NCBI GenBank assembly: GCA_030672305.1
Contig: DAOVGR010000020.1
Location: 1 to 36,127, forward strand
DNA: 36,127 nt
Origin: Thermoplasmatales archaeon
GTDB taxonomy: Archaea > Thermoplasmatota > E2 > DHVEG-1
Reading direction: 5' to 3'
Position 1 is the stretch's first letter, and each line of letters starts with the position of its first letter. Positions 13,441 to 29,075 of the stretch are shown here, in pieces. A program made the position numbers and the translations under genes. A model generated the notes under the pieces. It was not told the DNA's origin and made no database searches. It saw only the letters and a program-made list of their open reading frames with translations.

Positions 13441-13528
13441 CGCTGAGGGGGAGATTCGAACTCCCGCTCCCCAGATGGAGAACCGGCTCTCAAGGCCGGC
13501 GCGTTAGGCCGGACTTTGCTACCTCAGC
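13441..13528 (-). tRNA. tRNA-Ser (anticodon UGA)
   Basis: Read on the minus strand, this is an 88-nt class II tRNA. The acceptor stem GCTGAGG pairs with CCTCAGC, with discriminator G. The anticodon stem CCGGC/GCCGG holds the loop CTTGAGA (anticodon TGA), and the variable arm is long and GC-rich. The T arm contains GTTCGAATC. No CCA is encoded and no intron is seen. It lies 60 bases downstream of the uS10 gene on the same strand and may be co-transcribed with EF-1A and uS10. Confidence 0.95.
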
Positions 13529-13588
13529 ATGAAAAGGTTTTAATCTGAGTAAATAAAAGGAGATAAAAAGAGTTTTTGGAATTTATTT

Positions 13589-13900
13589 TTATGATCTTAA
13601 AACAATTTCAATATTTACTCCATCTGGTACCTGAATTCTCATAAGTTGACGAAGTGCTCTATCACTAGCATCAAGGTCAATGAGTCTTTTATGAATCCTC
13701 ATCTCCCACCGATCCCAGGTTTCAGTACCCTCACCATCAGGAGATTTCCTACAAGGGACTTTAAGATGCTTAGTTGGAAGAGGAATAGGACCACTCATAT
13801 CAACTCCTGTACGTTCAGCAATCATTTTTATCTGATTACAAACTTCTTCAAGTTTTTTTGCGTTTGTACTTACTAGGGATATCCGTGCTTTTTGCGCCAT
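13589..13900 (-). CDS. rps10: Small ribosomal subunit protein uS10
   Basis: This 103-aa protein matches archaeal S10 in length throughout: ARISLVSTN at the start, then [22 protein letters not shown] (the loop reaching into the 30S head), [12 protein letters not shown] and [13 protein letters not shown] at the end. It is a component of the 30S head. The gene follows EF-1A after 51 bases on the same strand and precedes tRNA-Ser, forming a translation cluster. A GGAG lies 12 bases before the start ATG. Confidence 0.96.
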
Positions 13901-13951
13901 TCCATTTTACTCCAAAAAATAAAAAATTAAAAAGAAAAAATAAAAAGAAAC

Positions 13952-15235
13952 CTATTTGGCCTCTTCAACATCTAAACAAAAACCAGCAGCTACAGTTTGC
14001 CCCATATCACGAATTGCAAACCTTCCAAGTTGCGGTATCTTTTTTGAGGATTCAATCACCATTGGACGTGTTGGGATAATTTTTACTATTGCTGCATCAC
14101 CTGTTTTAATAAAATCAGGATTCTCTTCTTTTACAGTTCCGGATTTGGGATCAAGTTTCTTCTGAATTTCTTCAAATCTGCATGCAACTTGTGCTGTATA
14201 ACAGTGGAATACGGGTGTATATCCTTTTGTGATAACAGATGGATGATTTAATACCATTATCTGGGCAATAAAAGATTTTGCTACCATTGGTGGATCATTT
14301 GGTGGTCCAGCAACATCCCCTCTACGGATTTCGTTTTTAGCTACACCCCTCATGTTTACTCCAACATTATCACCTGGTACAGCCTGATCTATCTGTTCAT
14401 GATGCATCTCTATTGTTTTTGCTTCTCCAGTAACACCACCTGGCTTCATACTAGGTTTGAAGATGAGTTGCATACCTGGTTTCATAATACCACATTCTAT
14501 CTTACCAACAGGTACGGTACCAACTCCTTTGATGGTATATACATCTTGTACAGGCCATCTAAGAGGTAACTGGGTAGGTTTCTCAGGGACTATAAATTTA
14601 TCAACAGCTTGAAGAATTGTATCCCCTGTCCACCAATCAATCTTACCTTTCTCTTTTACATTATCTCCAACAAAGGCAGATACCGCGATATATTGAAGTT
14701 GTTCATCCTTATAACCCACGCTTTTTGCAAGTTTATCAACCTCAGATCTAACTGTTTCATAACGATTTTTATCATAAGGGGGTTTAGTGTCATCCATCTT
14801 ATTAATCGCAATAACCATTTGTTTTACACCAAGGGTTCTTGCAAGAAACATATGCTCTTTAGTTTGTGCCATGATACCCTCAGGTGCAGCAACTACAAGT
14901 ATTGCGGCATCAGCCTGAGAGGTTCCAGTGATCATGTTTTTAACAAAATCTCTATGGCCTGGAGCATCTATAATTGTGAAATAATATTTATCAGTATCAA
15001 ATCTTTTATGGGCAACATCAATAGTCAAACCTCGCTCTCGCTCTTCTTTGAGTTGATCAAATATCCATGCAAGTGCAAAGCTGCCTTTTCCTTTTGCTTC
15101 TGCTTCTTCTTTAAATTTATCGACCATGTGTTTTGGGAACTGTCCAGTCTGAAGTAAGATTTGTCCTACTAAGGTGGATTTTCCATGATCAACATGACCA
15201 ATAATTACAAGGTTCATATGTGGTTTATCTGCCAT
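13952..15235 (-). CDS. tuf: Translation elongation factor 1-alpha (aEF1A)
   Basis: This 427-aa GTPase carries aminoacyl-tRNA to the ribosomal A site. Motifs in order are G1 GHVDHGKST, the switch I region [13 protein letters not shown]3 [13 protein letters not shown]4 NKMD and G5 SAFVGDN, followed by the two beta-barrel domains with the [16 protein letters not shown] stretch. It has the archaeal/eukaryotic form, not bacterial EF-Tu. A very strong ribosome site (AAAGGAGG) sits just upstream of the ATG, as expected for a highly expressed gene. Upstream, 15252-15660 holds no convincing gene and probably contains its promoter (TATA-like TTTATAAAT on the minus strand near 15457-15449). Confidence 0.97.
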
Positions 15236-15681
15236 TATACTTTACCTCCTTTCAAGACCAATTAATCTTAGGTATATTAGCTTTTTCATATATACGTCTT
15301 TTCTTAAATTTTTGATAGCGTATATAATTTCTATTTATAAGATTTATCCTGTTAAAATAAGGAGTATTTTCATTTAGAAAATTTACTTTTTTCTTAAGAT
15401 TTTTTAGTTCATTATCACATAATTTTATGATCGAATTATTAATATTAATATTTATAAAGACCTTTGTCCTTTTTAAATAGGATAAAAATAGGAGATTTTT
15501 TAATATCATTTTTTTCTATTTTTGTTATATTCTGTATCATAAGATATATATCCAAAATATTGATTAAATGGAAATATCGAGGGTAGGCAGTGTAATTTTT
15601 TAATAAAACAAAGTCCATATTCTTATCTCTCTTCTCTGTCTCCCTCCCCCGGCTTTAAAAATTATTTTTTAATTTTAGAAA

Positions 15682-15731
15682 ATAAGATGGGCTCGGAGAG
15701 ATTTGAACTCTCGACCTCCGCCATGTCAAGG
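15682..15731. repeat. attL: 50-bp copy of the tRNA-Val 3' part
   Basis: This copy is identical to 25535-25584. It contains the tRNA-Val sequence from the discriminator base through the T arm, variable loop and anticodon loop into the anticodon stem, but lacks the 5' half, so it is a tRNA fragment rather than a gene. The start codon and first ~15 codons of the integrase are read from it in the antisense direction. Confidence 0.93.
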
Positions 15732-16559
15732 GGACATTTTTTACAGTTGAAAAAGGTATCAAATAGTGAATTAAAAGAATACCTGAATACCATTGAGTTA
15801 AGCGGTGTTACTGAAAAACATATTAAGGAAATGAAGAGGTTTTTAGAGAATTATCTCAATGACGTTGAATGGGGATTAGATAAAAATAAGACGATTCAGT
15901 ATTTTAAGAAGTTGAAGGATAACTCTTCAGTTTCTTACTATAGAAAGCAAGGTTATCAAATTTTAAAATTCTTATCACATCATAATCAAGAATGGGCTTC
16001 AAAGATTAAGTTACCTAGCGACCCTGTATATATGCCTATAAAAGTTACTCAGGAAGAAGTTGATAGTACATTGGATTATTTCAAAGGAAAAAAACATGAG
16101 CTACAGTTTAAAGCATTGATTAACCTTGCATGTGATTCTGGGATTCGTGCACATGAATTATATCAACTTGAGCCCTTAGATATTGACCTTAAAGATAGGG
16201 TGGTGAAAATTGAACATAATCCCAATAAGAATAAATCAACGAAAACCAAAACTTCAAGGGTAAGCTTCTTTACAGAGAAAACAGCTCAGATTTTGAAGGA
16301 ATACTTTGAATATTTCAATAATGGAAGTGGTTTAACATGTTTGTTTAATCAGACACATATTGAAAGACAGTTTAAAGACGCTCCATTAAGAGTTAAGGAT
16401 TTAAGGAAGTATTTTTCAAGTGAATGGGAAAGGCGAAATGGTAATCATCAATTGAAAGAGCGGTTACTAGGTCATAGTTTAAAATCAGTTGATGCTAGGC
16501 ACTACAGTTATTTAGATACTGAAGAAATCAAAGCGGTTTATGATAAGGTGATGAAATAA
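15687..16559 (+). CDS. SSV-type tyrosine integrase, C-terminal (catalytic) part
   Basis: This 290-aa frame has its first 15 residues read from the tRNA-derived att repeat. Residues ~20-95 form an SAM-like core-binding domain. The catalytic domain follows, with Arg154 (DSGIRAHELY), Lys237-x-x-Arg240 (KDLR in place of the usual HxxR), His263 (LLGHS) and the nucleophile Tyr273 in RHYSYL (Tyr275 is the alternative). KxxR is described for SSV-type archaeal integrases. The catalytic set is complete, so the frame may be functional if its ATG in attL is used. In the excised circle the frame continues upstream into 25333-25539 without interruption, giving ~359 aa. It is the only gene of the left half on the plus strand. 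Confidence 0.9.
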   Translation: MGSERFELSTSAMSRGHFLQLKKVSNSELKEYLNTIELSGVTEKHIKEMKRFLENYLNDVEWGLDKNKTIQYFKKLKDNSSVSYYRKQGYQILKFLSHHNQEWASKIKLPSDPVYMPIKVTQEEVDSTLDYFKGKKHELQFKALINLACDSGIRAHELYQLEPLDIDLKDRVVKIEHNPNKNKSTKTKTSRVSFFTEKTAQILKEYFEYFNNGSGLTCLFNQTHIERQFKDAPLRVKDLRKYFSSEWERRNGNHQLKERLLGHSLKSVDARHYSYLDTEEIKAVYDKVMK

Positions 16560-16610
16560 TGTTCTGTCTTTAAAGCAGAACAGCTACTCCAAATATTATT
16601 AGCTTCCTAT

Positions 16611-18422
16611 TCATTTATTTCTCCTCTTTGTTTTCTTCTTTATATTCTTTGGATTAGATTTTACTTTTGTAAATTTAAAATAAAATAGTGATGAAGCAAC
16701 TACCAATATCAGTATGACTGATACAATTAGAATGGTACCATATTTCTGAATGAAGTTTTGTTCTATTCTGAAAAACTCACTAGAATCATATGTGTATGAG
16801 TTCTGTGTATCTGTTATCTTTATCTCATAATAATCATTTGGTTCTATATCTGAAGGGATTGCCCATTCATATAAGCCATCATTATAGGTTTTTTCCATTA
16901 TAGTTTTGTATAAACTCCCATCATAATATAATTCGATTTTGACATAATCTCCAGCATTTGTAGAATCCCAATTCAGGATTAAGGTATCATCTGTATAATG
17001 AGTATAATCTAAACTTGGATTTGAAATTTTAATTTCAGGTATTGTTTCACTCACTTTATTAGATTTGGAACTTTCTCCAAAATCATTTGAAGCTGTCACT
17101 TGATAATAATAAGTCGTCCCTTTCTCTATGTTATAATCACTATAGCTTTTTTGTGTCCCTAGAGATTTGATTTGGATGAGTTGATTAGATGATGTTCCTC
17201 TAAATACATGATAATTCTCAATTTGAACTCCTCCATCAAAATCTGGGGCATTCCAATTTATCCGTATATAATCATTATATGCATTTATCCCTAGATTTTT
17301 TGGGGGGTCTGGTTCTGTTGGTTGTTTATATGCATAATGAACATACTTTTCACTATAATAACGTATTTTATAACAAATATGTGGGAGATTGTACTCATCA
17401 ATATCAATAGTTGGGGTTTCTCCTGAAGAAGATACTTTATCTAACTCCCAAGAATTACCATTATTATAACCATAATTAATTCCTTCCCCTCCATATGTAA
17501 CATGTGGATTATTTTCATTATCTACTACAATATCACAATAACTACCCTTATCATCACCAGATGAATCAATTGTACCATATTCCCAGTAACCCTTCACTTT
17601 ATTTGCATATTTTAAATTTCTATCATTAAAAGGTTCATCAATAGAATCTGAAAAACAAATATGTGGTTTATTATTACTATCTACATCTATAGATAATTGA
17701 CTAACTTCAGTATATTGGCTTTGACTGAGTAACTCGTTAATCCAATTACTGCCAGATAAATAAGCATACCAAAGTTTCGGTGATGTGGTCATAGGGCGAT
17801 ATATTAACTCGCAATAAAGCACATGAGGTTTATCATTATAATCAAGGGCTAAAGAAACATCAACTCCCACATTTCCACCAGAATCTATTATTGATATGTC
17901 CCATCCCCAACTATAAACAGCATATTTTACCCAATGATTATATGGTTCACTATCCCAGACGTTGTATACTATATGAGGACGTCCACTACTATCAACCTCC
18001 AAATCAAATGAAGTCGAACCCAATTGTCCAGTTGAATCCACTATATCTAAAGACCATGAACCACTCTGCTTTTTCATATAATACAAGGTTTTTGATTGCT
18101 CATAAATGATATGTGGTCGATTGCTTGAGTCCAAGTCAAGCTTTACATTTTCATCTCCCCAACTATCAAAGTTTGACTTTACTGTTTCTATATCCCAATT
18201 ATATCCATTATAAGTTCCATAATGAAGAGTTTGTGTATTTGGGTCTGAAAATACAATATGTAATTTATTATTTGAATCAATTTTACAATAAATATCTGTT
18301 AAATAAGTTGAACCATAAGACCTATATTTCCAACTGAGTTCTGAATCTGCATTTACTTGAGATGAAGTAACAAGTAATAGGATTATAACCAATAAAGTTG
18401 TAAATATGATTTCCTTTTTCAT
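16611..18422 (-). CDS. Membrane-anchored surface protein: beta-propeller, FN3-like, C-terminal TM
   Basis: This 603-aa protein has a signal peptide (residues 1 to ~25, ending VNA) and an ectodomain with seven repeats ending in (R/K/N)-P-H-(I/V)-x-(Y/F) preceded by an Asp (e.g. DSSNRPHI, DSSGRPHI, DSNNKPHI). Seven repeats suggest a seven-bladed beta-propeller. A fibronectin type III-like domain (~373-461) and a second beta-sandwich (~465-555) follow. A single TM helix (~561-582) and a basic tail of ~21 residues end the protein, so it should face outward with its tail in the cytosol. GGAGG precedes the ATG. It is the largest protein of the element. A virion spike, adhesin or host-surface protein are options. 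No homologue is recognised. Confidence 0.75.
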   Translation of the reverse strand: MKKEIIFTTLLVIILLLVTSSQVNADSELSWKYRSYGSTYLTDIYCKIDSNNKLHIVFSDPNTQTLHYGTYNGYNWDIETVKSNFDSWGDENVKLDLDSSNRPHIIYEQSKTLYYMKKQSGSWSLDIVDSTGQLGSTSFDLEVDSSGRPHIVYNVWDSEPYNHWVKYAVYSWGWDISIIDSGGNVGVDVSLALDYNDKPHVLYCELIYRPMTTSPKLWYAYLSGSNWINELLSQSQYTEVSQLSIDVDSNNKPHICFSDSIDEPFNDRNLKYANKVKGYWEYGTIDSSGDDKGSYCDIVVDNENNPHVTYGGEGINYGYNNGNSWELDKVSSSGETPTIDIDEYNLPHICYKIRYYSEKYVHYAYKQPTEPDPPKNLGINAYNDYIRINWNAPDFDGGVQIENYHVFRGTSSNQLIQIKSLGTQKSYSDYNIEKGTTYYYQVTASNDFGESSKSNKVSETIPEIKISNPSLDYTHYTDDTLILNWDSTNAGDYVKIELYYDGSLYKTIMEKTYNDGLYEWAIPSDIEPNDYYEIKITDTQNSYTYDSSEFFRIEQNFIQKYGTILIVSVILILVVASSLFYFKFTKVKSNPKNIKKKTKRRNK

Positions 18423-18917
18423 ATCATTTCCTCCCCTTAAGGATAAAGTTTAATCAGATAATCATTTATAAACTCTAGGATAACAGATGTTAACTTATTT
18501 TGGTACATATTACAACACAAAGATAATATACTCTTGATTCACTCATACTGATGCAAAGGGGGCAGATATTGGCTGATGGTTACCATGATTATCGCTTTAT
18601 TTTGTCTGCCCCAAAGTTTTATTTTTTTAAATTGTAAGTGGTATAAGAAATGTCAAAAGTCAGGGTATATTAGGATAAGACCTAATGCTTCTCTCTTATA
18701 CCACAGGTTAAGTCTTATTGTAAGATGAGGGCTAAACTCAGCCCATCTCCTACATTTTCCATAGAGTTTGTAAGGGTGAAACAACTTTATAGAAGCAAGA
18801 TGTTCTCACCTGCGTAGAACTTTTCAGGTGTAGATGTGTCACCTTACTAGGTTCATGTGATTCTGAAAGGGAAATGCAGGAGGTTAGAAATACAACATTT
18901 CCCCATCATTTCAAGTT
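18423..18917. other. Structured non-coding region of the element
   Basis: No gene is seen, but many inverted repeats lie close together: GGGGCAGA (18559-18566) with TCTGCCCC (18605-18612), a palindrome ATGGTTACCAT between them, and a perfect 11-bp pair GTGGTATAAGA (18638-18648) with TCTTATACCAC (18694-18704). The latter encloses the hairpin ATTAGG/CCTAAT (18669-18686). Further hairpins (TCTTA/TAAGA, GGGCT/AGCCC, GGTGA/TCACC) continue to ~18840. It may be a structured RNA or a replication/packaging site. Confidence 0.45.
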
Positions 18918-19277
18918 TTATTTTAAGTCAAAGTCTTTTCGTTGGGGCATTTTCTCAGATGGTTTAAGTATAGTTTCTAGGAAATCTCCGAGACCTTCGA
19001 CATTGTAAGCCTTCTCCAATGCTTTATAATTCGTCGTCATAGGATTGCTTTTACCTACATTAGCAATAAATGAGCATATTCTAGTTAATGCGTCTTTGTT
19101 TGTGTTCAAATAACCTGCTCGATTCGTGAACTCAGCGAGAGCACTTTTATATTTAGTCTCTTTCTCTTTATGCTCCTGTAGTATTCGTATCTCTTCGTTG
19201 GTAATTTCTTGGATTTCCTTATCTAATTTAGCCTTCTCATTTAGTAATTCTGCTTTACTTTTCTTTCGTGTTAACAT
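18918..19277 (-). CDS. Coiled-coil small protein, 119 aa
   Basis: Not recognised. The first ~60 residues are a strong helical, K/E-rich coiled-coil candidate (KAELLNEKAKLDKEIQEI and onward). The C-terminal half contains SNPMTTNYKALEKAYN and may be globular. There is no signal or TM. GGAGG before the ATG supports translation. It is the last gene of the minus-strand cluster that begins at 22826. Confidence 0.6.
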   Translation of the reverse strand: MLTRKKSKAELLNEKAKLDKEIQEITNEEIRILQEHKEKETKYKSALAEFTNRAGYLNTNKDALTRICSFIANVGKSNPMTTNYKALEKAYNVEGLGDFLETILKPSEKMPQRKDFDLK

Positions 19278-19340
19278 TCTCTTTTACCTCCAATCTTACA
19301 AATTCTCCTAAAAAATAGTAGAAAGGGTTGTATGCCCCTT

Positions 19341-19655
19341 CTAATCTTGTTTCTTATAATAGCCAGATTTGAGCTTTCTGTATGTCTCTTCTACGCTTTG
19401 ATTTCCTGTGAATTTTCCTGCGTTTGGATGATATGTTCTATCAACACTTTTTACAAGATTGCAAATCTTTTCTTTTGCTATTTCAACTTCTCCTTGAAAT
19501 TTAGTAACTGTTGCGTTGTTGTCAATTGCTCCCATATTTGCTAGTTCTTTCAGTTTTCTATGTTGCTCTTCCTCTTGCCTCTTTCTCAACTCTAGGAGTT
19601 CTTTATATTCTCTAAGCTCCTCAGTTGTCATTTGTGCTTTTATTTCGTCTCTCAT
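19341..19655 (-). CDS. Coiled-coil small protein with LANMGA motif, 104 aa
   Basis: Not recognised. Residues ~8-40 form a charged helix (EELREYKELLELRKRQEEEQ), followed by ELANMGAID and a basic C-terminus. The DNA encoding LANMGA is part of a 19-base stretch that recurs exactly in the 61-aa gene at 22641-22826, hinting at recombination or a shared docking motif. GGAGGAG precedes the ATG. There is no signal or TM. Confidence 0.6.
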   Translation of the reverse strand: MRDEIKAQMTTEELREYKELLELRKRQEEEQHRKLKELANMGAIDNNATVTKFQGEVEIAKEKICNLVKSVDRTYHPNAGKFTGNQSVEETYRKLKSGYYKKQD

Positions 19656-19863
19656 ATGTTTTCTCCTCCAATATGTTTTACATTCTTCGTTGGTGTAGAT
19701 TACTCTCCCATCAACTAGGTGAACGTAACCTATAGAAATGTATTCGCCTACGGCGAAACTCTTCTCGCCACGTCTACGCGTGGCTCCGATTTAGATTAGG
19801 GGGGATTTTTAAAAAATCTCTCAAAACCAACGAGTTAAACTGTCGCCCCCTCTCCGCACCTAC
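19656..19863. repeat. Non-coding gap with two tandem GC-rich hairpins
   Basis: TTCGCC-TAC-GGCGAA (19743-19757, perfect 6-bp stem) is followed ten bases later by GCCACG-6 nt-CGTGGC (19767-19784, perfect 6-bp stem). Both stand out in AT-rich surroundings between the 104-aa and 87-aa genes. Two copies of the octamer TCGTTGGT (19687 plus, 19826 minus) flank them. A termination/processing element or a protein-binding site is possible. Confidence 0.5.
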
Positions 19864-20118
19864 TCAGCCATATATATCATGACCATAGGATTTATCATTC
19901 TCTTCGATTTCTATTCTTCTTCTAATATACCATTTCGCTAATCGTTCTGTTAAATCTAGTTTTTCTTTTAATGTCTCAATTTCCATCTCTAGCCTCGCCT
20001 TAACCTCTCCATTTTCGTTGAAAGATTTTAATGCATATTTCTCTAGCTCTTCTCGATTCATTTTTGTAATTCTTATCTTAAACTCTGCGTCTATTTCTTC
20101 TTTCGTAATCTTTCCCAT
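19864..20118 (-). CDS. Small helical protein, 84 aa
   Basis: Not recognised. It is almost wholly predicted helix: KITKEEIDAEFKIRITKMNREELEKYA, then a heptad-like stretch KARLEMEIETLKEKLDLTERLA. The start could be GTG 20127 or ATG 20118. The ATG is preferred, preceded by GAGTGGT within the end of the upstream zinc-finger gene, so the two genes are tightly packed and probably translationally coupled. Confidence 0.55.
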   Translation of the reverse strand: MGKITKEEIDAEFKIRITKMNREELEKYALKSFNENGEVKARLEMEIETLKEKLDLTERLAKWYIRRRIEIEENDKSYGHDIYG

Positions 20119-20120
20119 AT

Positions 20121-20408
20121 TTACCACTCGTGAGGTAGCGTTCCTTTACCTTCTTTAAAAAGTTGCATTTCTCGTTGTATTCTCCTTACGTGGTTGTCGT
20201 CTTTGAAATAATGCTCTTGTGTACATCTATAAAAATGAGGGCTACGCTGTAAATCCTTGTGGTGTACTTGTATGATTTTCTCTAGCTTTGAACTACAACG
20301 AGGGCACGTCTTAGGAATTGGAGGCTCTGGAAAGCTCCCCCCTAATGCAACGACGACGCGCCTACCTATCTCTAGGATATTATCTTTTAACCTGTCTATG
20401 AATTTCAC
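20121..20408 (-). CDS. Small zinc-finger protein, 95 aa
   Basis: Not recognised as a family. The centre holds C-x2-C (CPRC, residues ~35-38), then a basic stretch with paired His (VHHKD) and C-x-x-x-H (CTQEH), a likely zinc ribbon. The N-terminus is amphipathic and the C-terminus basic/helical. The start is GTG with GGTGAG eight bases upstream. The gap to the upstream winged-helix gene is only four bases. Nucleic-acid binding is plausible for a replication cluster. Confidence 0.6.
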   Translation of the reverse strand: MKFIDRLKDNILEIGRRVVVALGGSFPEPPIPKTCPRCSSKLEKIIQVHHKDLQRSPHFYRCTQEHYFKDDNHVRRIQREMQLFKEGKGTLPHEW

Positions 20409-20412
20409 GCTC

Positions 20413-20697
20413 TCACCGTCTTACTATAAATTGTATGCCTTCGTAGAATCTCGCGCCGTTTTCTTCAACGGTTATAACATCATAGTTTTTGAATAAATAT
20501 TGCGTGAACATTTGCACAGTTGGAATTGGGAGTAGATTGCTTTCACAGAATCTTTTAAACCTATCATACAGATACTCCTTTGATACCTTACTCGTTGGTG
20601 CTCTTTCAACGAATGTGCTTAGAAATGCCTCATTTGGATTTGCGAGCATATCCCAACGCTGTCTTAGTTGTGTTAATTCTTGGTATACTGGATTCAT
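20413..20697 (-). CDS. Winged-helix protein resembling the D5 helicase C-terminal domain
   Basis: This 94-aa protein has residues ~30-94 (SKVSKEYLYDRFKRFCESN through FYEGIQF) following the pattern of the winged-helix domain found at the end of D5/P4-type helicases (K-x2-L-Y-x2-F/Y-x3-C, then Y-x-G-I). It has a near-perfect ribosome site (GGAGGTGA). It starts 10 bases after the stop of the SF3 helicase, which itself already ends in a similar winged-helix-like region, so this looks like a second, free-standing DNA-binding module. A role in origin recognition with the helicase is inferred. Confidence 0.6.
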   Translation of the reverse strand: MNPVYQELTQLRQRWDMLANPNEAFLSTFVERAPTSKVSKEYLYDRFKRFCESNLLPIPTVQMFTQYLFKNYDVITVEENGARFYEGIQFIVRR

Positions 20698-20707
20698 TTT
20701 TCACCTC

Positions 20708-22408
20708 CTATGATGCGTCATATCCATCTTCTCCTATATCTGTAAAATCTTCTAATATTGGCTGTGTTCCTTCTGGTCTTTTGTCTTTCTTTATTTCTAT
20801 ACCCATATAGCAATCTATGTTATCATGTCCTTTATTCTTGACTATAACCTTGTGGGTTTTCTTGAGATATGATGTCAACTGATTCTTGGTTATTTTCATA
20901 GCTCCCCTAGTTTCTTTAACGAATTTTTCTAGCAACTTATACATGTTATCTGTCGTCTCACCAGTTTCGTCTCCTACCGTTGTATCTAGATAGATGTGTG
21001 TAAAATGTTCTAGCGGATTTAGATAATATTCATATTTATGTATTCCATTAATCGTTGGTGTGTGTGTGAATCTACCATTCTTAAGAAGTCGCTTAAGACC
21101 TTCTATGCTCCACTTCAATAAGCCTCTCATCTCTTCTGTTGTTGTTAGTTTCTCTAATAGGTGTATGTCTTGTTTTCCCGCAGGATAGTATTTTTTGAAA
21201 GGTATCAAATGTATTCTATCGTATATTGCTATATCTCCATCCCCTAGCTCTATTAATTCATTCATTAAGGCTATAAGTTTCGCAGTGTTTTTGGCTTGAA
21301 ATTTATTACCTCCTTTATATTGCATACTTATTAAGTCGTTACCACATGTGGCTTTAATCTTGTCTGTATTTGAGAGTGCTTTTTTACTAACCTCTGCGGT
21401 TATATTTGCAAGTTTATCATAGAGGCTAGACGTTGCGAATCTATCGTATTGTAAGTCTTCTAATGATTCACCGCTTACACTATCTTTTCCAAGCATTTTA
21501 GATAAAAGCCTAGTGAGTACGCCTTTACCATTTCTACCTGTACCGTATAATATGAATATAACATGTATTGGATAGTCTCTGTATAGACAGTACCCGAACA
21601 TCTCCTGTATAAGTGCGATATTCTCTTCGTTTCCTTCCATTATATCGTCAACGAAGTCGAGAATTTCATCACACTTAGCATCTTTAATGTAGTCAACGCC
21701 TATGGTTGTTAAGAAATTATCATCCGGTGAATGTGACTCTAATTCGTCTGTGTCTAAGTTATACGTACCATTTTCACAGTTAATCTTATACAACGGAGGC
21801 TTCATAGCTGACCTCTCCGTTATGCTCTGTCGCTTGATTCCTTCTATTACTTCACGCACTAGATTAATTCTGACTTTGTCGTATTCTCCAACGAGATTTT
21901 CAACTATCGTTGCTGTCTTTGTTTCACCAGTAAATCTATATCTACCCGATTTTTTGTCATACCACCATAGCTCTTTATTAGAATCTCTCCCATCTACTAC
22001 GGTTTTAAAATGTAATTCCATGCCGTCATATATGTAACGATATAGCTTCTGTGCATTAATTGAGGTTATTATTTGACCTGTCTTTTTATCATATCTAAGT
22101 ATACCAAGCTCTTTTAACTTATGTTCTTTTGAATCAGCGTCTATGAAACCATGCTCTTCTACATATTTTACTATATCATTTTCTCTGTCTGATTCTTCAA
22201 TGTCTTGATTTATTCCCGACTCAGCATCTAATTTCTTGTTTGTCTCTCGCATTTTTGCTTCTATTATGGCTCGCTCTTCCTCAGGTGTCAATGTGTCCTT
22301 GATTTTAGGTAAGTCAGAAATATCATTAGAATCTACGTTTGTGTTTTCTACCCATTCCGTGTTTTCCTTTTTTGGAAAGCTATTACCATTTGTATTCTTA
22401 GTGCTCAT
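20708..22408 (-). CDS. D5-like superfamily 3 helicase (replication protein)
   Basis: This 566-aa protein has an acidic, low-complexity N-terminus (~1-85), then a D5_N-like region, and the SF3 AAA+ core with Walker A GTGRNGKGV (Lys295). The downstream RFATSSLYDKLANITAEVS and LIALMNELIELGDGDIAIYDRIHLIPF segments carry Walker B/sensor 1 and the arginine-finger region. The end (~470-540) looks like a winged helix closing with YMGIEIKK. Such proteins unwind the origin of viruses and plasmids. No primase (AEP) domain is visible in this protein or its neighbours. AAGGTGAC precedes the ATG. It is the core replication gene of the element. Confidence 0.88.
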   Translation of the reverse strand: MSTKNTNGNSFPKKENTEWVENTNVDSNDISDLPKIKDTLTPEEERAIIEAKMRETNKKLDAESGINQDIEESDRENDIVKYVEEHGFIDADSKEHKLKELGILRYDKKTGQIITSINAQKLYRYIYDGMELHFKTVVDGRDSNKELWWYDKKSGRYRFTGETKTATIVENLVGEYDKVRINLVREVIEGIKRQSITERSAMKPPLYKINCENGTYNLDTDELESHSPDDNFLTTIGVDYIKDAKCDEILDFVDDIMEGNEENIALIQEMFGYCLYRDYPIHVIFILYGTGRNGKGVLTRLLSKMLGKDSVSGESLEDLQYDRFATSSLYDKLANITAEVSKKALSNTDKIKATCGNDLISMQYKGGNKFQAKNTAKLIALMNELIELGDGDIAIYDRIHLIPFKKYYPAGKQDIHLLEKLTTTEEMRGLLKWSIEGLKRLLKNGRFTHTPTINGIHKYEYYLNPLEHFTHIYLDTTVGDETGETTDNMYKLLEKFVKETRGAMKITKNQLTSYLKKTHKVIVKNKGHDNIDCYMGIEIKKDKRPEGTQPILEDFTDIGEDGYDAS

Positions 22409-22426
22409 AGTGTCACCTTGAATACC

Positions 22427-22630
22427 TTAATAATCACTCTGCTTTTCTGTAATGAGTAAGTGTGTCCTTTCGTCAAATGTCTTTTTATGGTAGATTATCT
22501 TAGCTATTTTTTCTACCATATCCATTATATCAATATGTGTGCCGTAGTCACATTTATAGACGAGTGCTCCCGTAACTAACTGATTATACGCACTTGTACC
22601 TTCTTTGTTTTTGCTTTCGTTTTCTGTCAT
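22427..22630 (-). CDS. Small hypothetical protein, 67 aa
   Basis: Not recognised. It is polar, with a disordered N-terminus and a helical centre (DIMDMVEKIAKIIYHKK). GAGGG precedes the ATG. It lies 18 bases before the helicase gene and ~10 bases after the 61-aa gene, clearly in one operon. There is no TM or cysteine cluster. Confidence 0.55.
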   Translation of the reverse strand: MTENESKNKEGTSAYNQLVTGALVYKCDYGTHIDIMDMVEKIAKIIYHKKTFDERTHLLITEKQSDY

Positions 22631-22640
22631 GTTTTAACCC

Positions 22641-22826
22641 TCACTCATTGGCTCCATTGGTTTTCTCATCTTCGTTGGTTCCGTTGCTCTTTAATTCTGC
22701 AAATGCTCCCATATTTGCTAGTAGCTCTATAGTAATTCCGAGCACTTTTGACCTTGTGCCCTTTGGGAGAGCATCCCATATTTGGAATTGACTATCTGAG
22801 AGGGTGGTACATATTGAATGTGTCAT
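22641..22826 (-). CDS. Small hypothetical protein, 61 aa, first gene of the minus cluster
   Basis: Residues ~14-42 (QFQIWDALPKGTRSKVLGI and onward) resemble the second half of ribbon-helix-helix regulators (L-P-x-G-x-R-S-K-V followed by a helix), but this is only a resemblance. The tail is polar and low complexity. It contains LANMGA, shared at DNA level with the 104-aa gene. GGAG precedes the ATG. As the first gene after the repeat-rich region it could regulate the operon. Confidence 0.5.
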   Translation of the reverse strand: MTHSICTTLSDSQFQIWDALPKGTRSKVLGITIELLANMGAFAELKSNGTNEDEKTNGANE

Positions 22827-23642
22827 ATTATCTCCTCTCTAGCGAGCTTTTGAATTCACCATTTTTTTCTTTATACATTTTTTATTTCTCCTTTTGTTGG
22901 GTTTAATACCCTCTTGTTTTCATAGCCCAAGTTCAAAGGATTAATGCTGTCTAGAATATCTCAGGTTAAGAATCCATTCACACGAAATACGCTAGGCTCT
23001 TCTCTCTCGTGTTGCTACTTTGTGACGTGCCCCTGTATGGGCTGTGGTTGTTTTTGTCTAACGTCGTGTCACTTATTATTATGAGCTATTAATATATTTT
23101 AATCCAAATCTTGCTAATTGTTAACATTGAAATTATCAATATGCTTAAAGCTAATATTATCAATAATCTATATGTGTTATCCCCCTATAAATGTTTCTAT
23201 TTTCTCCCGTTGAGTCCGTTTTCTTCGTGGGTAAATATTCCCATTCGTTGGTCTATTTCCCACTTTTTACCCACGCTAGGGTGGTGATTTTGACGGGTAG
23301 AAAAAAGGATACATAGATGCTGAGAAAAAATAGCACATAGCAAGACACAGAAAAAAACACATTTCCCAATAAGAAAACGCACGAGAGCGCGACCTTTTTT
23401 AACTTTCTCTAACCTTAGTTATATGTTTAAAAAATAAAAAAGTATAAGTATAAACATATAGTAGGTAAGGAAATTTTCAAAAAAAGTCGCAATGTTGAAT
23501 ACAACGAGCTTATTTCCCCTCCGCTAGATTCTCCCTGTTCTGTACCTGTTGTTCTGTGCTCTCCTCGTAGATTATAGCCACCTCTAGGTTGTAGCCACCT
23601 CTCTCCTTCCCTGTGCGTGCTACAGTAGTCTACCTCCTAAGA
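22827..23642. other. Repeat-rich divergent region, candidate replication origin
   Basis: No supported gene is seen. The strand of transcription switches here. Inverted repeats include CGTGGGTAAA (23226-23235) with TTTACCCACG (23266-23275) and TATATGTTT (23420-23428) with AAACATATA (23452-23460). A TATTTCCC-like motif recurs across this region and beyond (23254, 23511, 23854; longer forms TATTTTCCCC/TATTTTCTCC in both orientations at 23199, 23676, 23791, 23822). The A/T-rich stretch 23400-23475 would melt easily. Next to an SF3 helicase operon this fits an origin. Confidence 0.5.
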
Positions 23643-23656
23643 AAATATATATAAAC
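23643..23656 (+). promoter_or_regulatory. Strong TATA-like box reading rightward
   Basis: AAATATATATAAAC suits an archaeal TATA element, with a start expected near 23680. It would drive the plus-strand genes of the element. The region just downstream carries GGGGGAAAATA, a member of the repeated TATTTTCCCC family, well placed for an operator. Confidence 0.5.
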
Positions 23657-23715
23657 ATATTCATATTAGATGGTCGGGGGAAAATAGACATCATTCAACA
23701 GGAGGGGGGCATATA

Positions 23716-23745
23716 TGGAGAAATATATAATTGGATTAGAATAAT
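23716..23745 (+). other. Nine-codon mini-ORF with near-perfect ribosome site
   Basis: AGGAGGGGGG (23701-23710) is followed five bases later by an ATG and a frame MEKYIIGLE ending in TAA. The ribosome site is stronger than those of most genes here. It may be a leader peptide upstream of the 78-aa membrane protein gene or the start of a decayed gene. Confidence 0.3.
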
Positions 23746-23929
23746 TATATTTATCAGGAGTAAAATCATAAAACAGCCTCTAGAATGATATATTTTCCCC
23801 ATACATCAAAGCCTTATAACAGGAGAAAATAGCTTAGAATCAGCTAGAAAAAATATTTCCCAGAATAGATAAAAATAAAATAGAAGAAAACTTATAAAAC
23901 AGAATCATATTTAAAAATAGAGGGATTTT

Positions 23930-24166
23930 ATGTCAAAATATACAGATAAATTAAGCGATAGAGAAAAATTCATAGTTTGGCTCTCAATGTTAGGAGGCTT
24001 AGGATTTGGATTAATGGGAAATATGATAGTCACAGCCACATTTAGATATATGGATAATATGAACAGTACGAACGCCCTTACAATCTATGTCATAACATGG
24101 ATAGCATTTTTAATAATATTCTCAATTATTACGAAATCATTAGATAAATTATATAAAAAACTATGA
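23930..24166 (+). CDS. Small membrane protein with two TM helices, 78 aa
   Basis: Not recognised. It has a charged N-terminus (residues 1-13) and two hydrophobic segments (~14-36 and ~50-66) separated by a short polar loop, ending in a basic tail (KSLDKLYKKL). GAGGGA lies five bases before the ATG. Both termini are probably cytosolic. It is the first sizeable plus-strand gene of the element. Small two-TM proteins are common in archaeal viruses and plasmids, but no specific function can be given. Confidence 0.65.
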   Translation: MSKYTDKLSDREKFIVWLSMLGGLGFGLMGNMIVTATFRYMDNMNSTNALTIYVITWIAFLIIFSIITKSLDKLYKKL

Positions 24167-24633
24167 ACGTGAGCAGGTTTAGTTATTTATTGATACAACG
24201 ACATAAGATTTCGATTGACACCTTATAAGCTCTAGCCCTTTTTTTATAACCCTAGCCCCTACTCGCTCGATTTTTTACTTCTACTTAACTTATGACATTA
24301 ATTAGTAACTACCCATTTTTGGGAGAAAAAAAGACACATAAATATATATCTCTTCTAAGCTCACGAAATGAGGCATTTTATAGGAGAAAAACGATAAGTA
24401 TATAAGTGTGCGTCACATTCATATTATTGGAGCTATAAAACGAGAGGGCATTTCATTTATGTTCCCCCTATGAGACAAGGGGTAAAATCAAAGCTCCCGT
24501 CGTTGGTGGCGTCGCAAGACTTATTCTTTATAAGTTCTAGTTGTTGGTAGTTTTTTGTAGGCACTAGACGGGATAAGATGAGAGTACATCAACGAGAAAT
24601 TCTAGGAGGCTAGGAGAGAGATTTAGAGAGTTT
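24167..24633. other. Non-coding stretch in the right arm of the element
   Basis: No credible gene is seen; only frames of about 20 codons or fewer occur, one of which (24163-24228) overlaps the previous stop as ATGA. The stretch includes TCGTTGGT at 24500-24507, a hairpin ACTTAT/ATAAGT near 24527-24543 and purine-rich GGAGAAAA stretches. Possible promoters for the following operon are AT-rich stretches around 24390-24440. Confidence 0.35.
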
Positions 24634-24643
24634 AGGAGGTGAT
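24634..24643 (+). promoter_or_regulatory. Perfect ribosome site before a gene lacking AUG/GUG/UUG at the right distance
   Basis: AGGAGGTGAT lies seven bases upstream (counting from GGAGG) of an in-frame ATA at 24647. The nearest standard codon, TTG 24656, is 16 bases away. No other in-frame start exists back to the stop at 24611. Confidence 0.6.
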
Positions 24644-24646
24644 AAA

Positions 24647-24766
24647 ATAAGACATTTGAGGTTAGTATTAGAAGATAAAGAATACGATAGATTGAAAGAA
24701 ATTAAAGGCTCTATGACGTGGCGAGAGCTACTATTAGAGTGTTATAATATAAAGAAAAGTAGGTAG
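24647..24766 (+). CDS. Small ribbon-helix-helix-like protein, apparent AUA start
   Basis: This frame gives 39 aa from ATA 24647 or 36 aa from TTG 24656. The body (LRLVLEDKEYDRLKEIKG, then SMTWRELLLECY) follows the strand-helix-helix pattern of short archaeal CopG/antitoxin-like proteins, in which a strand is followed by D-x-E-Y-x-R-L-K-x-x-K-G and then W-R-E-x-L-L. The perfect ribosome site points to the ATA codon, which would be an unusual initiation; the TTG is the conservative choice. It opens a tightly packed plus-strand operon. DNA-binding regulator or antitoxin is inferred from the pattern. Confidence 0.55.
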   Translation: MRHLRLVLEDKEYDRLKEIKGSMTWRELLLECYNIKKSR

Positions 24767-24788
24767 AAAATAGGAGAAATGATAAGAT

Positions 24789-24962
24789 ATGAAAGAAAGA
24801 AAAGAAATAAGAAAAATGAGGCAGTTGATAAAATCGAAAGTTAAGGAGATAGAAAACCCCCAAACCTGCAAAGAATTAGAGGAATTCATATCTCCAGAAA
24901 ATGACAGCGATAATAAATTGAAAAAACTTTCTATGCATCCGTATGGGGATGACTTGTTATGA
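24789..24962 (+). CDS. Basic small protein, 57 aa
   Basis: Not recognised. It has a strongly basic first half (KERKEIRKMRQLIKSKVKE), then a polar, proline- and acid-containing half ending in HPYGDDLL. Its TGA overlaps the ATG of the next gene (ATGA at 24959-24962), which supports both as real and translationally coupled. The ribosome site (GGAG at 24773-24776) is about 12 bases from this ATG and closer to an alternative ATG at 24779 that opens only a 21-codon frame. Confidence 0.5.
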   Translation: MKERKEIRKMRQLIKSKVKEIENPQTCKELEEFISPENDSDNKLKKLSMHPYGDDLL

Positions 24963-25141
24963 ATAATGAAACTACAGTAACCTCTGATACATCTATTAGT
25001 AGCGTTGAAATCAGTAAAAATAGCAAAGGTACAACTTATAAGGTCAAGTGCTACAACGTTGATATAGCAGAAGCTAAGAAGAAAGCTATAGAAATCTATG
25101 AGAGCTTGAAGGCTAAATATCCAGAGGGTGATTTAAAATGA
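24959..25141 (+). CDS. Small hypothetical protein, 60 aa
   Basis: Not recognised. It has a Ser/Thr-rich N-terminus, a beta-strand-like centre (GTTYKVKCYNVDI) and a helical end (AEAKKKAIEIYESLKAKYP). It starts in a four-base overlap with the 57-aa gene and ends in another ATGA overlap with the 58-aa gene, so all three belong to one operon. Confidence 0.6.
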   Translation: MNNETTVTSDTSISSVEISKNSKGTTYKVKCYNVDIAEAKKKAIEIYESLKAKYPEGDLK

Positions 25142-25314
25142 GCAACTGCGAAGGTCATATCAAGCGACAGGTTGCAATTGTAAAAGCTGTTAATACCTTT
25201 GGAAATGGTCTTTCTCAGGATTGGAAAATGGAAATCTACAGACAGGTAAATAAGTGGTTAATCAGTGATAAGATAGGGGAAGAGCGTAAGAACGGATTTA
25301 AAAGGAGATATTAA
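25138..25314 (+). CDS. Small hypothetical protein, 58 aa
   Basis: Not recognised. It is a basic, mostly helical protein with one cysteine (MSNCEGHIKRQVAIVKAV at the start), two Trp in the centre and a basic tail (ERKNGFKRRY). It starts inside the ATGA overlap with the 60-aa gene and is followed 18 bases later by the integrase N-terminal frame. Position next to int suggests an accessory recombination or copy-control factor, a guess from context only. Confidence 0.55.
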   Translation: MSNCEGHIKRQVAIVKAVNTFGNGLSQDWKMEIYRQVNKWLISDKIGEERKNGFKRRY

Positions 25315-25332
25315 TTCAGGTTTGGTGTTATC

Positions 25333-25602
25333 ATGGATAAAAAGAACATAACTCTAAGAGTAAGATGTGATTTAATCCAAAAGGCTAAAGATACACACCT
25401 TAACCTCTCTTCTTTTTTTGAAATCAGACTTCAGGAATGGTTTCAGGCAGAGGGCTTAACTTGTGCAGATTATGTGCAACACACACATAACACACGAAAA
25501 GAATTTGATTCCAACACAGGAATAAAACAAGATTATAAGATGGGCTCGGAGAGATTTGAACTCTCGACCTCCGCCATGTCAAGGCGACGTCATAACCACT
25601 AG
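25333..25602 (+). CDS. Integrase N-terminal part, int(N), split off by integration
   Basis: This frame runs for 89 codons. Residues 1-38 (KNITLRVRCDLIQKAKD, then LNLSSFFEIRLQEWF) look like a ribbon-helix-helix domain, followed by a polar linker to residue 69. From residue 70 it reads M-G-S-E-R-F-E-L and so on through the att repeat in exactly the same frame as the left-hand integrase, and then ends shortly after in the tRNA 5' half. Joining 25333-25584 to 15732-16559, as in the excised circle, gives one uninterrupted frame of about 359 aa. In the integrated state this piece may be a free RHH peptide or simply inactive. It is the last gene of the right-arm operon. Confidence 0.8.
   Translation: MDKKNITLRVRCDLIQKAKDTHLNLSSFFEIRLQEWFQAEGLTCADYVQHTHNTRKEFDSNTGIKQDYKMGSERFELSTSAMSRRRHNH
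25535..25584. repeat. attR: 50-bp repeat inside the intact tRNA-Val gene
   Basis: This copy is identical to 15682-15731. It ends in the anticodon stem just 5' of the anticodon loop. With one mismatch the similarity continues four bases further. Because the right chromosomal side supplies the 5' half, the tRNA gene is restored here. Confidence 0.93.
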
Positions 25603-25613
25603 ACCACGAGCCC
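25541..25613 (-). tRNA. tRNA-Val (anticodon GAC), integration target
   Basis: Read on the minus strand, this is a 73-nt tRNA. The acceptor GGGCTCG pairs with CGAGCCC, with discriminator A. The D arm holds TAGTGGTTATGA. The anticodon stem TCGCC/GGCGG (one G-U) holds loop TTGACAT (anticodon GAC), and the T arm is GAGAG-TTCAAAT-CTCTC. No CCA is encoded and no intron is seen. The gene remains complete despite the insertion because the element carries the same 3' half. Confidence 0.94.
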
Positions 25614-25764
25614 TATTTGCCAATGGAAAATAGCGTAATAGTTTTTGAAATTTACTGATAAATCAATAAAAAATAAATGATATGAATATTCAACTGTATA
25701 GTTACCTGCTAAAAACATAAATAAATCTTGTTTCTATTTTAAACTTTCCAAAAATCGGAGAGGG

Positions 25765-25935
25765 ATGCATTTGAATGAGAATAATGGTAAAATAAAGAAA
25801 ACTCGCACAAGTTTTTTTAAGGGAATCAAAAAGGAAGGCACTCTTGATGGAGCTACATTTGATATTTGGAAAACAGAATTACAAAAAGATCTTTACAATT
25901 TTTGGGAATCAATAAATGATTCTGGGAGAAGATAA
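25765..25935 (+). CDS. Small hypothetical protein, 56 aa
   Basis: Not recognised. It has a basic N-terminal third (GKIKKTRTSFFKGIKKEG) and a C-terminal helix with aromatic residues (FDIWKTELQKDLYNFWESI). GGAGAGGG directly precedes the ATG at 25765. It lies between tRNA-Val and the Nudix gene, outside the element's att site, so it is chromosomal by position. Confidence 0.55.
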   Translation: MHLNENNGKIKKTRTSFFKGIKKEGTLDGATFDIWKTELQKDLYNFWESINDSGRR

Positions 25936-25959
25936 TAAAAACTATTTTTTTGTTAAATA

Positions 25960-25970
25960 TTAAATATATA
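25960..25970 (+). promoter_or_regulatory. TATA-like box of the Nudix-TFS operon
   Basis: TTAAATATATA is centred 25 bases before the ATG at 25990 with no ribosome site between, suggesting a leaderless mRNA. Confidence 0.5.
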
Positions 25971-25989
25971 GTTAACATTCCTGTGGTTC

Positions 25990-26391
25990 ATGAGTTATAA
26001 AAATCCGAAATTAACTGCAGATGGAGCAGTTTTAAAAGAAGATAAAATTCTTTTAATCAAGCGGAAAAATAATCCTTTTAAAGGAAAATGGGCTCTTCCT
26101 GGTGGATTCGTCGAATATGGCGAAAAAGTGGAAGATGCAGTTATCAGAGAAATATATGAAGAAACAGGATTAAAAACTAGCATAAATAAAATTTTTGGAG
26201 TTTATTCTGATCCTAATAGAGATCCAAGAGGACATATTGTCACAATAGTATATTTATTAGATATTATGGGTGGAGAATTAAAAAGTAATGACGACGCTTC
26301 CGATGCAAAATTTTTTAATGTAAAAGAATTACCAGATTTATCATTTGATCATAATATTATATTAAAAGATATTTTAAGGAGTATTGAATAA
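25990..26391 (+). CDS. Nudix hydrolase (ADP-ribose pyrophosphatase-like)
   Basis: This 133-aa enzyme hydrolyses nucleoside diphosphates linked to another group. The Nudix box G-x5-E-x7-R-E-x-x-E-E-x-G is complete from GGFVEYGEK through REIYEETGL. WALPGG just before it is also typical. The YSDPNRDPRGH stretch after the box resembles the ADP-ribose/NADH pyrophosphatase branch, but the substrate is uncertain. The start lacks a Shine-Dalgarno sequence and has a well-placed TATA-like box. The TFS gene begins one base after its stop, so the two are co-transcribed. Confidence 0.88.
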   Translation: MSYKNPKLTADGAVLKEDKILLIKRKNNPFKGKWALPGGFVEYGEKVEDAVIREIYEETGLKTSINKIFGVYSDPNRDPRGHIVTIVYLLDIMGGELKSNDDASDAKFFNVKELPDLSFDHNIILKDILRSIE

Positions 26392-26392
26392 C

Positions 26393-26695
26393 ATGTTTTG
26401 TCCAAAATGTAAGAGTTTAATGTATCCAACAGAAGATATTATTGAATGTCGAAAATGTGGTTATAAAAAAGAAAAGAAAGGTAAAACTATAGTTGTAACC
26501 AAACAGAAAGAAAAAGAAATAATTCTTCTTGAAGATGATGATTCAAATAACGTTCTTCCTAAAACAAAAATCAAATGTCCAAAATGTGGGAATAATGAAG
26601 CTTTTTGGATTCTTAGACAAATGAGAGGTAGTGATGAACCAGAAAGTAGATTTTATACCTGTACAAAATGTAAAAATAAATGGAGAGAAGATTAG
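26393..26695 (+). CDS. tfs: Transcription factor S (TFIIS/RpoM-like)
   Basis: This 100-aa protein has the size of archaeal TFS. The N-terminal zinc ribbon has C-x2-C (FCPKC) and C-x2-C (CRKC). The C-terminal ribbon has CPKC and CTKC around the beta-hairpin RGSDEPESRF, whose Asp-Glu pair reaches into RNA polymerase to stimulate cleavage of backtracked RNA; it is intact. ATG 26393 is chosen over TTG 26384 because MFCPKCKSLM is the family's usual start. It lies one base after the Nudix stop and upstream of the PCNA gene, a neighbourhood common in euryarchaea. Confidence 0.93.
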   Translation: MFCPKCKSLMYPTEDIIECRKCGYKKEKKGKTIVVTKQKEKEIILLEDDDSNNVLPKTKIKCPKCGNNEAFWILRQMRGSDEPESRFYTCTKCKNKWRED

Positions 26696-26784
26696 GAAAG
26701 TTTAAATATAATATAAAGCAATATTAATATATAAAATTCATATATATCAGGTTGATTACAAACATAAATTTGGGGGAAAAATAA

Positions 26785-27441
26785 TTGCCAAAAAAATTAA
26801 TCGTAATTCTTGTTGCTCTAGGTTTTATTTCATCAGGTATAGCTTTTGCATCTGGTGAACAAGTTACAAAATATAATATTCGTGAAACTGAAGAAATTAC
26901 ATCTGATATGGATGAAAATACAATTACTGTAACTCTTTTTAAACATGAGTTTGATGGTTCAAGAACTCCTATAGAAGTTGAAATTGAGTTGGAAGAGGGA
27001 AAAGACATCGGGGAATTAATTGAAGAAAAATGTTTAGAGTATTTAGAAGATGATCCGATAATCAATAGATTAGTTGAGGAAAATATAACTCAAGAATTAA
27101 TAATGAAAATAAGGTCTCGAGGTAGAGGTCTTCATATTAGATTTAACTCACGTGTCCAATTTTTCAAACTATATAAATTATTTCCATTTCTTCCTCCTTA
27201 TTTCAGGACTTTTGTTATCGTTCCACTTATTATTTGTAATTATAAAAATGATAATCGGGCTAATACTACATTATCACAAATTAAAGGCAATAATTCAACA
27301 ACAGTGGTCGGACCACATAGAGTTATTTCAATAGGATTTTATGGTATTTCTTGGTGGATTGGAAAAGTTTCCTTAGTTGGTTTTGTAGTTAGAAATGGTT
27401 TTGTGGGAATTTCTTTACTGACAAGAATAAAAAAGCTATAA
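26785..27441 (+). CDS. Secreted or membrane-anchored hypothetical protein, TTG start
   Basis: This 218-aa protein is not recognised. TTG 26785 follows a strong GGGGG ribosome site by eight bases, and the next residues form a clear signal peptide (KKLIVILVALGFISSGIAFA). The mature N-terminal ~100 residues are acidic (EIELEEGKDIGELIEE). The C-terminal half is basic, with hydrophobic stretches (~130-152 and ~180-205) that may contact the membrane. It sits between tfs and pcn in the same direction but has its own AT-rich promoter region (TATA-like ATATATAAAA near 26729). Confidence 0.65.
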   Translation: MPKKLIVILVALGFISSGIAFASGEQVTKYNIRETEEITSDMDENTITVTLFKHEFDGSRTPIEVEIELEEGKDIGELIEEKCLEYLEDDPIINRLVEENITQELIMKIRSRGRGLHIRFNSRVQFFKLYKLFPFLPPYFRTFVIVPLIICNYKNDNRANTTLSQIKGNNSTTVVGPHRVISIGFYGISWWIGKVSLVGFVVRNGFVGISLLTRIKKL

Positions 27442-27466
27442 AATTGTTAGTAAAATACCGTCATAG

Positions 27467-27474
27467 TTATAAAC
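27467..27474 (+). promoter_or_regulatory. TATA-like box for pcn
   Basis: TTATAAAC lies about 65 bases before the PCNA start, allowing a leader of ~40 bases that contains the strong ribosome site TTGGGGGAG (27521-27529). Confidence 0.4.
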
Positions 27475-27536
27475 ACAAAACGTATTAATTTTCTTTAAAA
27501 TCTTATAACTCATAATATTGTTGGGGGAGAAAAAAC

Positions 27537-28274
27537 ATGTTTAATGCTAAAGTAAAATCAGAGGTACTTAAGGGTATAATTGACGTAACGTCTCCATTAG
27601 TAAATGAAGTTAAACTTAATATTACACCAAAAGGAATCTCTCTTAGAGCAGTTGATCCAGCACATGTTGCAATGGTAGATCTTGAGGTAAATAGTAAGGC
27701 TTTTGAAGAGTTTAATGCAACTGAGATGGAACTTGGGATAGACATGGATAAACTTGGAAGTATAATGCGTCTTTCAAGTTCTGGTGATATGATAACTCTT
27801 GACTATGATGAGGAGTCAAACAGGCTTATTGTAAAAATTGGAAATCTTATCAGAAAGATGGGGCTTATTGATACCGCAGGAATGCCAGATCCAAAAATGC
27901 CTAATTTAAATCTCCCAGGAAAGGTTATTTTAAAAGCATCTGAACTTAATCAAGGTGTAAGAGCATCTGAGGCAGTTTCAGATCATCTTGCATTAACTGT
28001 TGATAAAAATAATTTCGAGTTGTTTGCAGAAGGAGATACAGATACTGTAAATCTAAAACTTCCAAAAGATCTTCTTGTAGAACTTAACACCAGCTCTAAA
28101 TGCAAAAGTCTTTTCTCAATTGATTATTTCAGCAATATGATTAAACCAGTCAGAGGAGATGATCCAATTACAATTATGATAGGTAATGATAATCCTATCA
28201 AAGTTGAATTTGATATTGCTGAAAAGAAAGGTCATGTAACATATCTACTTGCACCTCGCATTGAATCAGAGTAA
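27537..28274 (+). CDS. pcn: DNA sliding clamp PCNA
   Basis: This 245-aa protein has normal PCNA length and features. It includes the N-terminal AKVKSEVLKGIIDVTSPLVNE, the PKGISLRAVDPAHVAMVDL stretch, the interdomain connector region, and the C-terminal YLLAPRIESE holding the AP(R/K)-E end contacted by PIP-box partners. The trimeric ring tethers DNA polymerase, FEN1, ligase and RFC. TTGGGGGAG serves as ribosome site, resembling that of the preceding gene. Downstream on the same strand are Pop5 and a winged-helix regulator. Confidence 0.96.
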   Translation: MFNAKVKSEVLKGIIDVTSPLVNEVKLNITPKGISLRAVDPAHVAMVDLEVNSKAFEEFNATEMELGIDMDKLGSIMRLSSSGDMITLDYDEESNRLIVKIGNLIRKMGLIDTAGMPDPKMPNLNLPGKVILKASELNQGVRASEAVSDHLALTVDKNNFELFAEGDTDTVNLKLPKDLLVELNTSSKCKSLFSIDYFSNMIKPVRGDDPITIMIGNDNPIKVEFDIAEKKGHVTYLLAPRIESE

Positions 28275-28287
28275 GACTTAATTTTTT

Positions 28288-28293: not shown

Positions 28294-28298
28294 TAAAT

Positions 28299-29068: not shown

Positions 29069-29075
29069 ATAGATT

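Follow-up and report, generated by a model that had tools for sequence, protein, structure and literature searches.

The closest described systems to the locus reported here are the suicidal integrases of archaeal mobile elements, which follow the type I mechanism (review PMC8371274). The integrase of SSV1 (ORF D-335) carries its attachment (att) site in the 5′ part of int, its gene is split at integration, and its active site contains KxxR. A split integrase has also been described earlier for ArcVen-P3 of Archaeoglobus veneficus (PMC4158269). Archaeal mobile-element biology has yet to explain why such integrases persist although each integration destroys the gene that encodes them (PMC8371274). 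Here, we analyzed a stretch of 36,127 nucleotides, hereafter the window (GenBank assembly GCA_030672305.1, contig DAOVGR010000020.1), from a marine-sediment archaeon of the Thermoplasmata lineage of “Thermoplasmatales archaeon SG8-52-3” and of the same genus. With a probability that we put at roughly 0.88, the window carries a small integrative element with a type I, self-splitting tyrosine integrase from a family headed by a ribbon-helix-helix (RHH) domain; its gene is divided into an N-terminal arm, int(N), and a C-terminal arm, int(C).

The longest repeat of the window is a perfect direct repeat of 50 bp (15682–15731 and 25535–25584), extending to 59 bp at 95%, and it cannot be explained by chance. 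The right copy, on the int(N) side, equals nucleotides 30–73 of tRNA-Val(GAC) plus 6 bp past the tRNA 3′ end, and lies within an intact tRNA gene called by ARAGORN (25541–25613, minus strand). The left copy, again the 3′ part of tRNA-Val, forms the element junction on the int(C) side and abuts a host flank that is colinear with SG8-52-3. This sister genome, also of the Thermoplasmata, presents the empty attB: the element is absent, the left flank of the window (13307–15735, EF-1A side) aligns to L186 7768–5382 at 87%, the right flank (25535–30973, PCNA side) aligns to L186 5435–1 at 82%, and the two alignments share 54 bp within an intact, orthologous tRNA-Val (L186 5357–5429). Because the flanks meet colinearly at this empty site, the 9,853 bp between them (15732–25584, including one att copy) are an inserted element and not a mere repeat. 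The reconstruction shows that att recombined with the 3′ part of tRNA-Val(GAC), which restored the tRNA through the insertion and placed int(N) at one end of the element and int(C) at the other.

The plus-strand frame passes through the two att copies in one and the same phase, and positions 25333–25584 joined to 15732–16559 give one open frame of 359 amino acids. In the circle, the order would be RHH domain, linker, att, core-binding domain and catalytic domain. In the integrated state, int(N) (25333–25602, plus strand) has its own start codon, a CcdA-like RHH domain at residues 1–40, a linker and ~20 residues read antisense through the tRNA up to a stop at 25600–25602. The other arm, int(C) (15687–16559, plus strand), runs for 290 amino acids from an ATG within att and holds a SAM-like core-binding domain and the catalytic domain of a tyrosine recombinase, matching PF00589 with 51.5 bits. 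Its catalytic set (R223, K255, K306xxR309, H332 and Y342 in the joined numbering) is invariant in a six-row family alignment and has the R..K..[H/K]xxR..H..Y pattern of type I archaeal integrases. The arms were folded apart with AlphaFold2. The int(C) model has a predicted local distance difference test (pLDDT) score of 91, with low confidence in its first 18, mostly att-derived residues, and its top matches in PDB are XerA structures (5hxy and 4a8e, E-values of 3 × 10⁻⁹ to 3 × 10⁻⁸). For int(N), residues 1–40 form an extended segment and helices at 12–20 and 25–40 with a pLDDT of 88–97, and confidence is lost beyond residue 40, as would be expected for an RHH chain modelled without its dimer partner. 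A sequence-only reading of the window had identified the repeat with the 3′ part of tRNA-Val(GAC), followed one plus-strand frame of about 359 residues through both copies, placed R..KxxR..H..Y on the left arm and an RHH-like N-terminus on the right, and concluded that int is partitioned in the SSV manner. Repeat search and ARAGORN agree with the first of these points, and the frame and the catalytic residues are as it described. The partition is upheld by the in-frame arms, the att within the gene, the intact tRNA at the int(N) end and the empty site, which that reading had proposed to look for and which genome comparison supplied.

Its RHH head found further support in a Pfam CcdA match (PF07362, an RHH family; E = 4.5 × 10⁻⁴) and in conservation through the whole family. 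Searching with the joined protein, we found relatives of int(C) in 21 of the 52 genomes of the order; most of the surveyed genomes are metagenome-assembled genomes from a few lineages. Nearly all of these relatives begin with a peptide resembling a translated part of a tRNA, in either orientation. Six further Thermoplasmata elements have the second att on the same contig, and the frame entering att encodes an RHH-like N-arm in each. Archaeoglobus JdFR-27 and Mnemosynella likewise carry an RHH N-arm in phase with the C-arm, across an att of 46 and 55 bp, respectively. Thus, in nine of nine elements whose two ends could be paired (seven from Thermoplasmata plus these two), one frame leads from an RHH N-arm through a tRNA-derived att into a tyrosine-recombinase C-arm. 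This agreement is informative because the elements use different tRNA phases, with a chance of in-phase agreement of ~1/3 per pair. All six complete joined proteins match CcdA (best E = 3.7 × 10⁻⁶) and align with one another over their length; five further N-arms exceed the curated CcdA cut-off, N-arms other than that of the window scoring 23–30 bits. RHH N-arm open reading frames (ORFs) numbered 34, and 28 of them run stop-free into tRNA sequence; of the remaining six, two end in a stop shortly ahead of the tRNA, two are truncated at a contig end and two carry damage. When the RHH profile alone, with no att letters, was applied to Archaeoglobi-type genomes, it returned ten loci, and in every one the ORF end coincides with, or lies shortly before, a complete or partial tRNA. 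Pairs of N-arms have dN < dS over ~41–66 codons per pair. In the tree, most Thermoplasmata C-arms group together beside a clade of Archaeoglobales and viral-contig sequences (99/99). On this evidence, the CcdA-like RHH head is part of the integrase throughout the family, across Thermoplasmata and Archaeoglobi-related archaea.

Several individual members were recorded alongside this survey. The genome of the window itself has further members in tRNA-Arg(TCG) (G000:C21) and tRNA-Pro(TGG) (G000:C27), the latter with an N-arm-like ORF that meets an in-frame stop after 16 residues. L157 and L159, from one genome, have near-identical RHH heads and different tRNA targets (Ser and Val), so target choice seems not to depend on the RHH head. 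One of the six further paired elements above, 2.3 kb in length (L079 1081–3419), uses the 5′ half of tRNA-Gly as its att and holds a damaged RHH and little beyond the integrase and one ORF. On one contig (G021:C1), an N-arm at 163762 (plus strand) and a C-arm at 1893284 (minus strand) share the same tRNA-Val att peptide while lying far apart; they are either two elements or one pair parted by inversion. Integrase arms parted by inversion have reportedly been seen in TKV2/TKV3.

At the start of many N-arms of the family lie tandem 8-bp palindromes, ATACGTAT, spaced 10–11 bp apart, the downstream copy overlapping the start codon and providing the AT of its ATG. Tandem palindromes over its own start codon are the layout of an RHH repressor operator. 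An expectation-maximization (EM) model of the tandem arrangement reached a log-likelihood of 57.8, compared with 16–22 in six dinucleotide-shuffled controls. Across the 52 genomes, an exact search for ATACGYAT-N2/3-ATRCGYATG gave seven matches, each located where an RHH int(N) begins (for example, G000:C21:1663-1681, G026:C114:15317-15336 and G021:C1:163746-163764); three of the seven matches lie outside the EM training set, and a reversed control pattern gave none. An Archaeoglobi N-arm (L152) has three palindrome copies at 11-bp steps. A subgroup with the strand IRTTITI carries AGTATATACT in place of ATACGTAT; this covariation of β-strand and motif is suggestive only (Fisher p = 0.008 for one motif and 0.08 for the other, with related rows). 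When the regions ahead of int(N) were scored for simple inverted repeats, they did not reach significance as a set (6/34 at p ≤ 0.05), unlike the tandem palindrome model. The tandem palindromes at int(N) starts are a new lead and suggest that the RHH head binds its own promoter or P arm.

We propose that the full-length integrase would act before integration and integrate the circle. Thereafter, int(C) would lack its own promoter and start, an in-frame ATG staying behind in att, and int(N) would retain promoter and start and end within the tRNA. Excision would then need an intact integrase of a relative, supplied in trans, or a re-joined hybrid gene, such as the N1-att-C2 hybrids that tandem insertions would create. 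For the family, as distinct from the window copy, we lean towards the view that the RHH head binds the tandem palindromes covering the start codon of its own gene, acting as an autorepressor, an arm-site binder or both. If expressed after integration, Int(N) would be a free RHH repressor. That it does stay functional as a repressor in this state appears somewhat doubtful. We regard as similarly tentative the broader scheme, under which the integrase would be its own repressor and the split would release the RHH head to silence the int of related incoming elements, giving superintegration immunity with no separate repressor gene.

The recombination role alone deserves serious consideration, although we hold it at less than even odds: the head would serve multimer assembly or binding of arm-type sites, as do the N-domains of lambda and SSV integrases, and the tandem sites would be arm sites. 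The N-terminal parts of IntSSV1 and SSV2 govern multimerization (PMC8371274), and the P arm does contain the tandem sites, which precede int(N) and are thus no more than a few hundred bp from att. However, they exactly overlap the start codon, a position typical of an operator, and the window copy has none, so that they are not needed by every member. The recombination and operator roles of the head may both hold. Far less probable, in our judgement, is that the in-frame join is a coincidence, with the integrase being the 290-residue frame from the ATG in att (15687) and the RHH ORF a separate small regulator. Although int(C) does have that in-frame ATG and both complete recombinase domains, and although mobile elements often carry small genes for RHH regulators, of the CcdA type among others, the phase agreement in all pairable elements was not forced, given that more than one phase is used; the great majority of the RHH ORFs have no stop ahead of the tRNA, and an RHH is the ORF found at that end in two phyla.

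A further rival reading would make the element a dead fossil, with neither arm functional any longer. Stops or frameshifts interrupt one arm in several relatives, and a free form was found neither among the viral contigs, phages and plasmids searched, which yielded no intact copy, nor in 390 genomes of the phylum, which yielded no intact one-piece integrase. In the window, by contrast, both arms, both att copies (50/50 identical) and the tRNA are intact, and dN < dS in N-arm pairs speaks for constraint, on few sites; we therefore consider a fossil unlikely. Contiguous N-att-C loci had been candidates for free forms and were rejected, being damaged or out of frame and better read as scars of tandem insertion: at the junction on SG8-52-3 contig 9, the N part uses frame 2 and the C part frame 1, G029:C138 has half an RHH only, and G239:C8 has a stop ahead of att. 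Junctions resembling tandem insertions in one tRNA occur at L087 9768–10843, L093 3322–4260, L168 6898–7396 and upstream of the C-arm in L070. Such junctions look like a source of hybrid integrase genes, one out of phase and the others damaged. Returning to the self-splitting, RHH-headed integrase that we favor, several observations weigh against it. The N-arm of the window itself scores below the Pfam CcdA cut-off (21.0 versus 22.4 bits), and Foldseek gives it a weak match only (Arc, 1bdv, E = 2.1); because of this weak match, the RHH fold of the N-arm rests on sequence profiles. The fused 359-residue protein is a reconstruction, no free circle or intact gene having turned up in the searches above, and the contiguous junctions in relatives are all damaged or out of frame. 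The tandem palindromes, in turn, were spotted by eye before the statistical test, and a motif search found no match at the int(N) of the window.

The regulation of the window int(N) must differ from that of its motif-bearing relatives, judging from the absence of tandem palindromes, from two small overlapping ORFs directly upstream (24959–25314, plus strand) and from a GGTG ahead of the ATG. The two ORFs, the second of which has no family match, are probably co-transcribed with int(N), and the GGTG (25324–25327, plus strand) is a possible Shine–Dalgarno core 5 nucleotides before the start codon. Elsewhere in the element, domain matches point to a D5_N/DUF5906 primase-helicase of 566 residues as the probable replication protein (20708–22408, minus strand) and to a 603-residue protein with an N-terminal signal-like segment and fn3/Kre9 domains (16611–18422, minus strand). 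Among the scanned element proteins, no capsid gene was recognised. A 94-residue ORF adjoining the helicase (20413–20697) matches the C-terminal end of primase-helicase families and is possibly a duplicated or split helicase C-terminus. A second tyrosine recombinase, of 387 residues with Phage_integrase and SAM_4 matches (32903–34066), lies in the right flank, outside the element.

These findings extend type I integration to marine-sediment Thermoplasmata, where the family is common. They also bear on the persistence of suicidal integrases: the piece cut off would be an entire DNA-binding domain that keeps its start codon and, in many members, has a specific tandem site on that codon, which offers a concrete, testable answer. 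The splitting of int may accordingly be a regulatory switch and not damage alone.

In comparison with SSV1, the integrase of the window shares the position of att, the split and the KxxR active site, and the peptide derived from the tRNA is of the same kind (SSV1 residues 65–75, DPPGFEPGTSG). In contrast, SSV1 has the N-domain PF07935 (118 bits) and PF16795 (207 bits), whereas a CcdA-like RHH and PF00589 are found here; PF16795 scores 22.9 bits for the window integrase and 20–23 bits for the family, under a cut-off of 27, so that the pairing of PF07935 and PF16795 above cut-off that marks the SSV1-like fusellovirus family is absent from the window integrase. SSV1 Int gave no match to the RHH profile, and no fusellovirus genes were seen in the window element. 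The label “fuselloviral SSV-type” in the sequence-only reading therefore stands for the mechanism and falls for the sequence family, with PF16795 sub-threshold and no capsid gene recognised; by the profiles compared, an RHH-headed type I integrase is SSV-like in mechanism only. That reading had also called the RHH extension unusual, fairly so given the PF07935 N-domain of SSV1 and a review of archaeal tyrosine recombinases that mentions neither RHH nor CcdA (PMC8371274). Closer relatives are the suicidal integrases of Archaeoglobales and Thermococcales elements, with C-arms 29–31% identical in the neighbouring clade, a tRNA-derived att at the 5′ end of int, and RHH N-arms in Archaeoglobus and Mnemosynella; most Thermoplasmata C-arms form a group separate from them. 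The Archaeoglobales and viral-contig clade probably comprises pT26-2-like integrases, by reported host range. Finally, the head resembles repressors of the CcdA/MetJ/Arc type in its CcdA profile match and, in many members, in the tandem 8-bp palindromes 10–11 bp apart on the start codon; here, however, the RHH domain forms the front of a recombinase, from which integration cuts it off.

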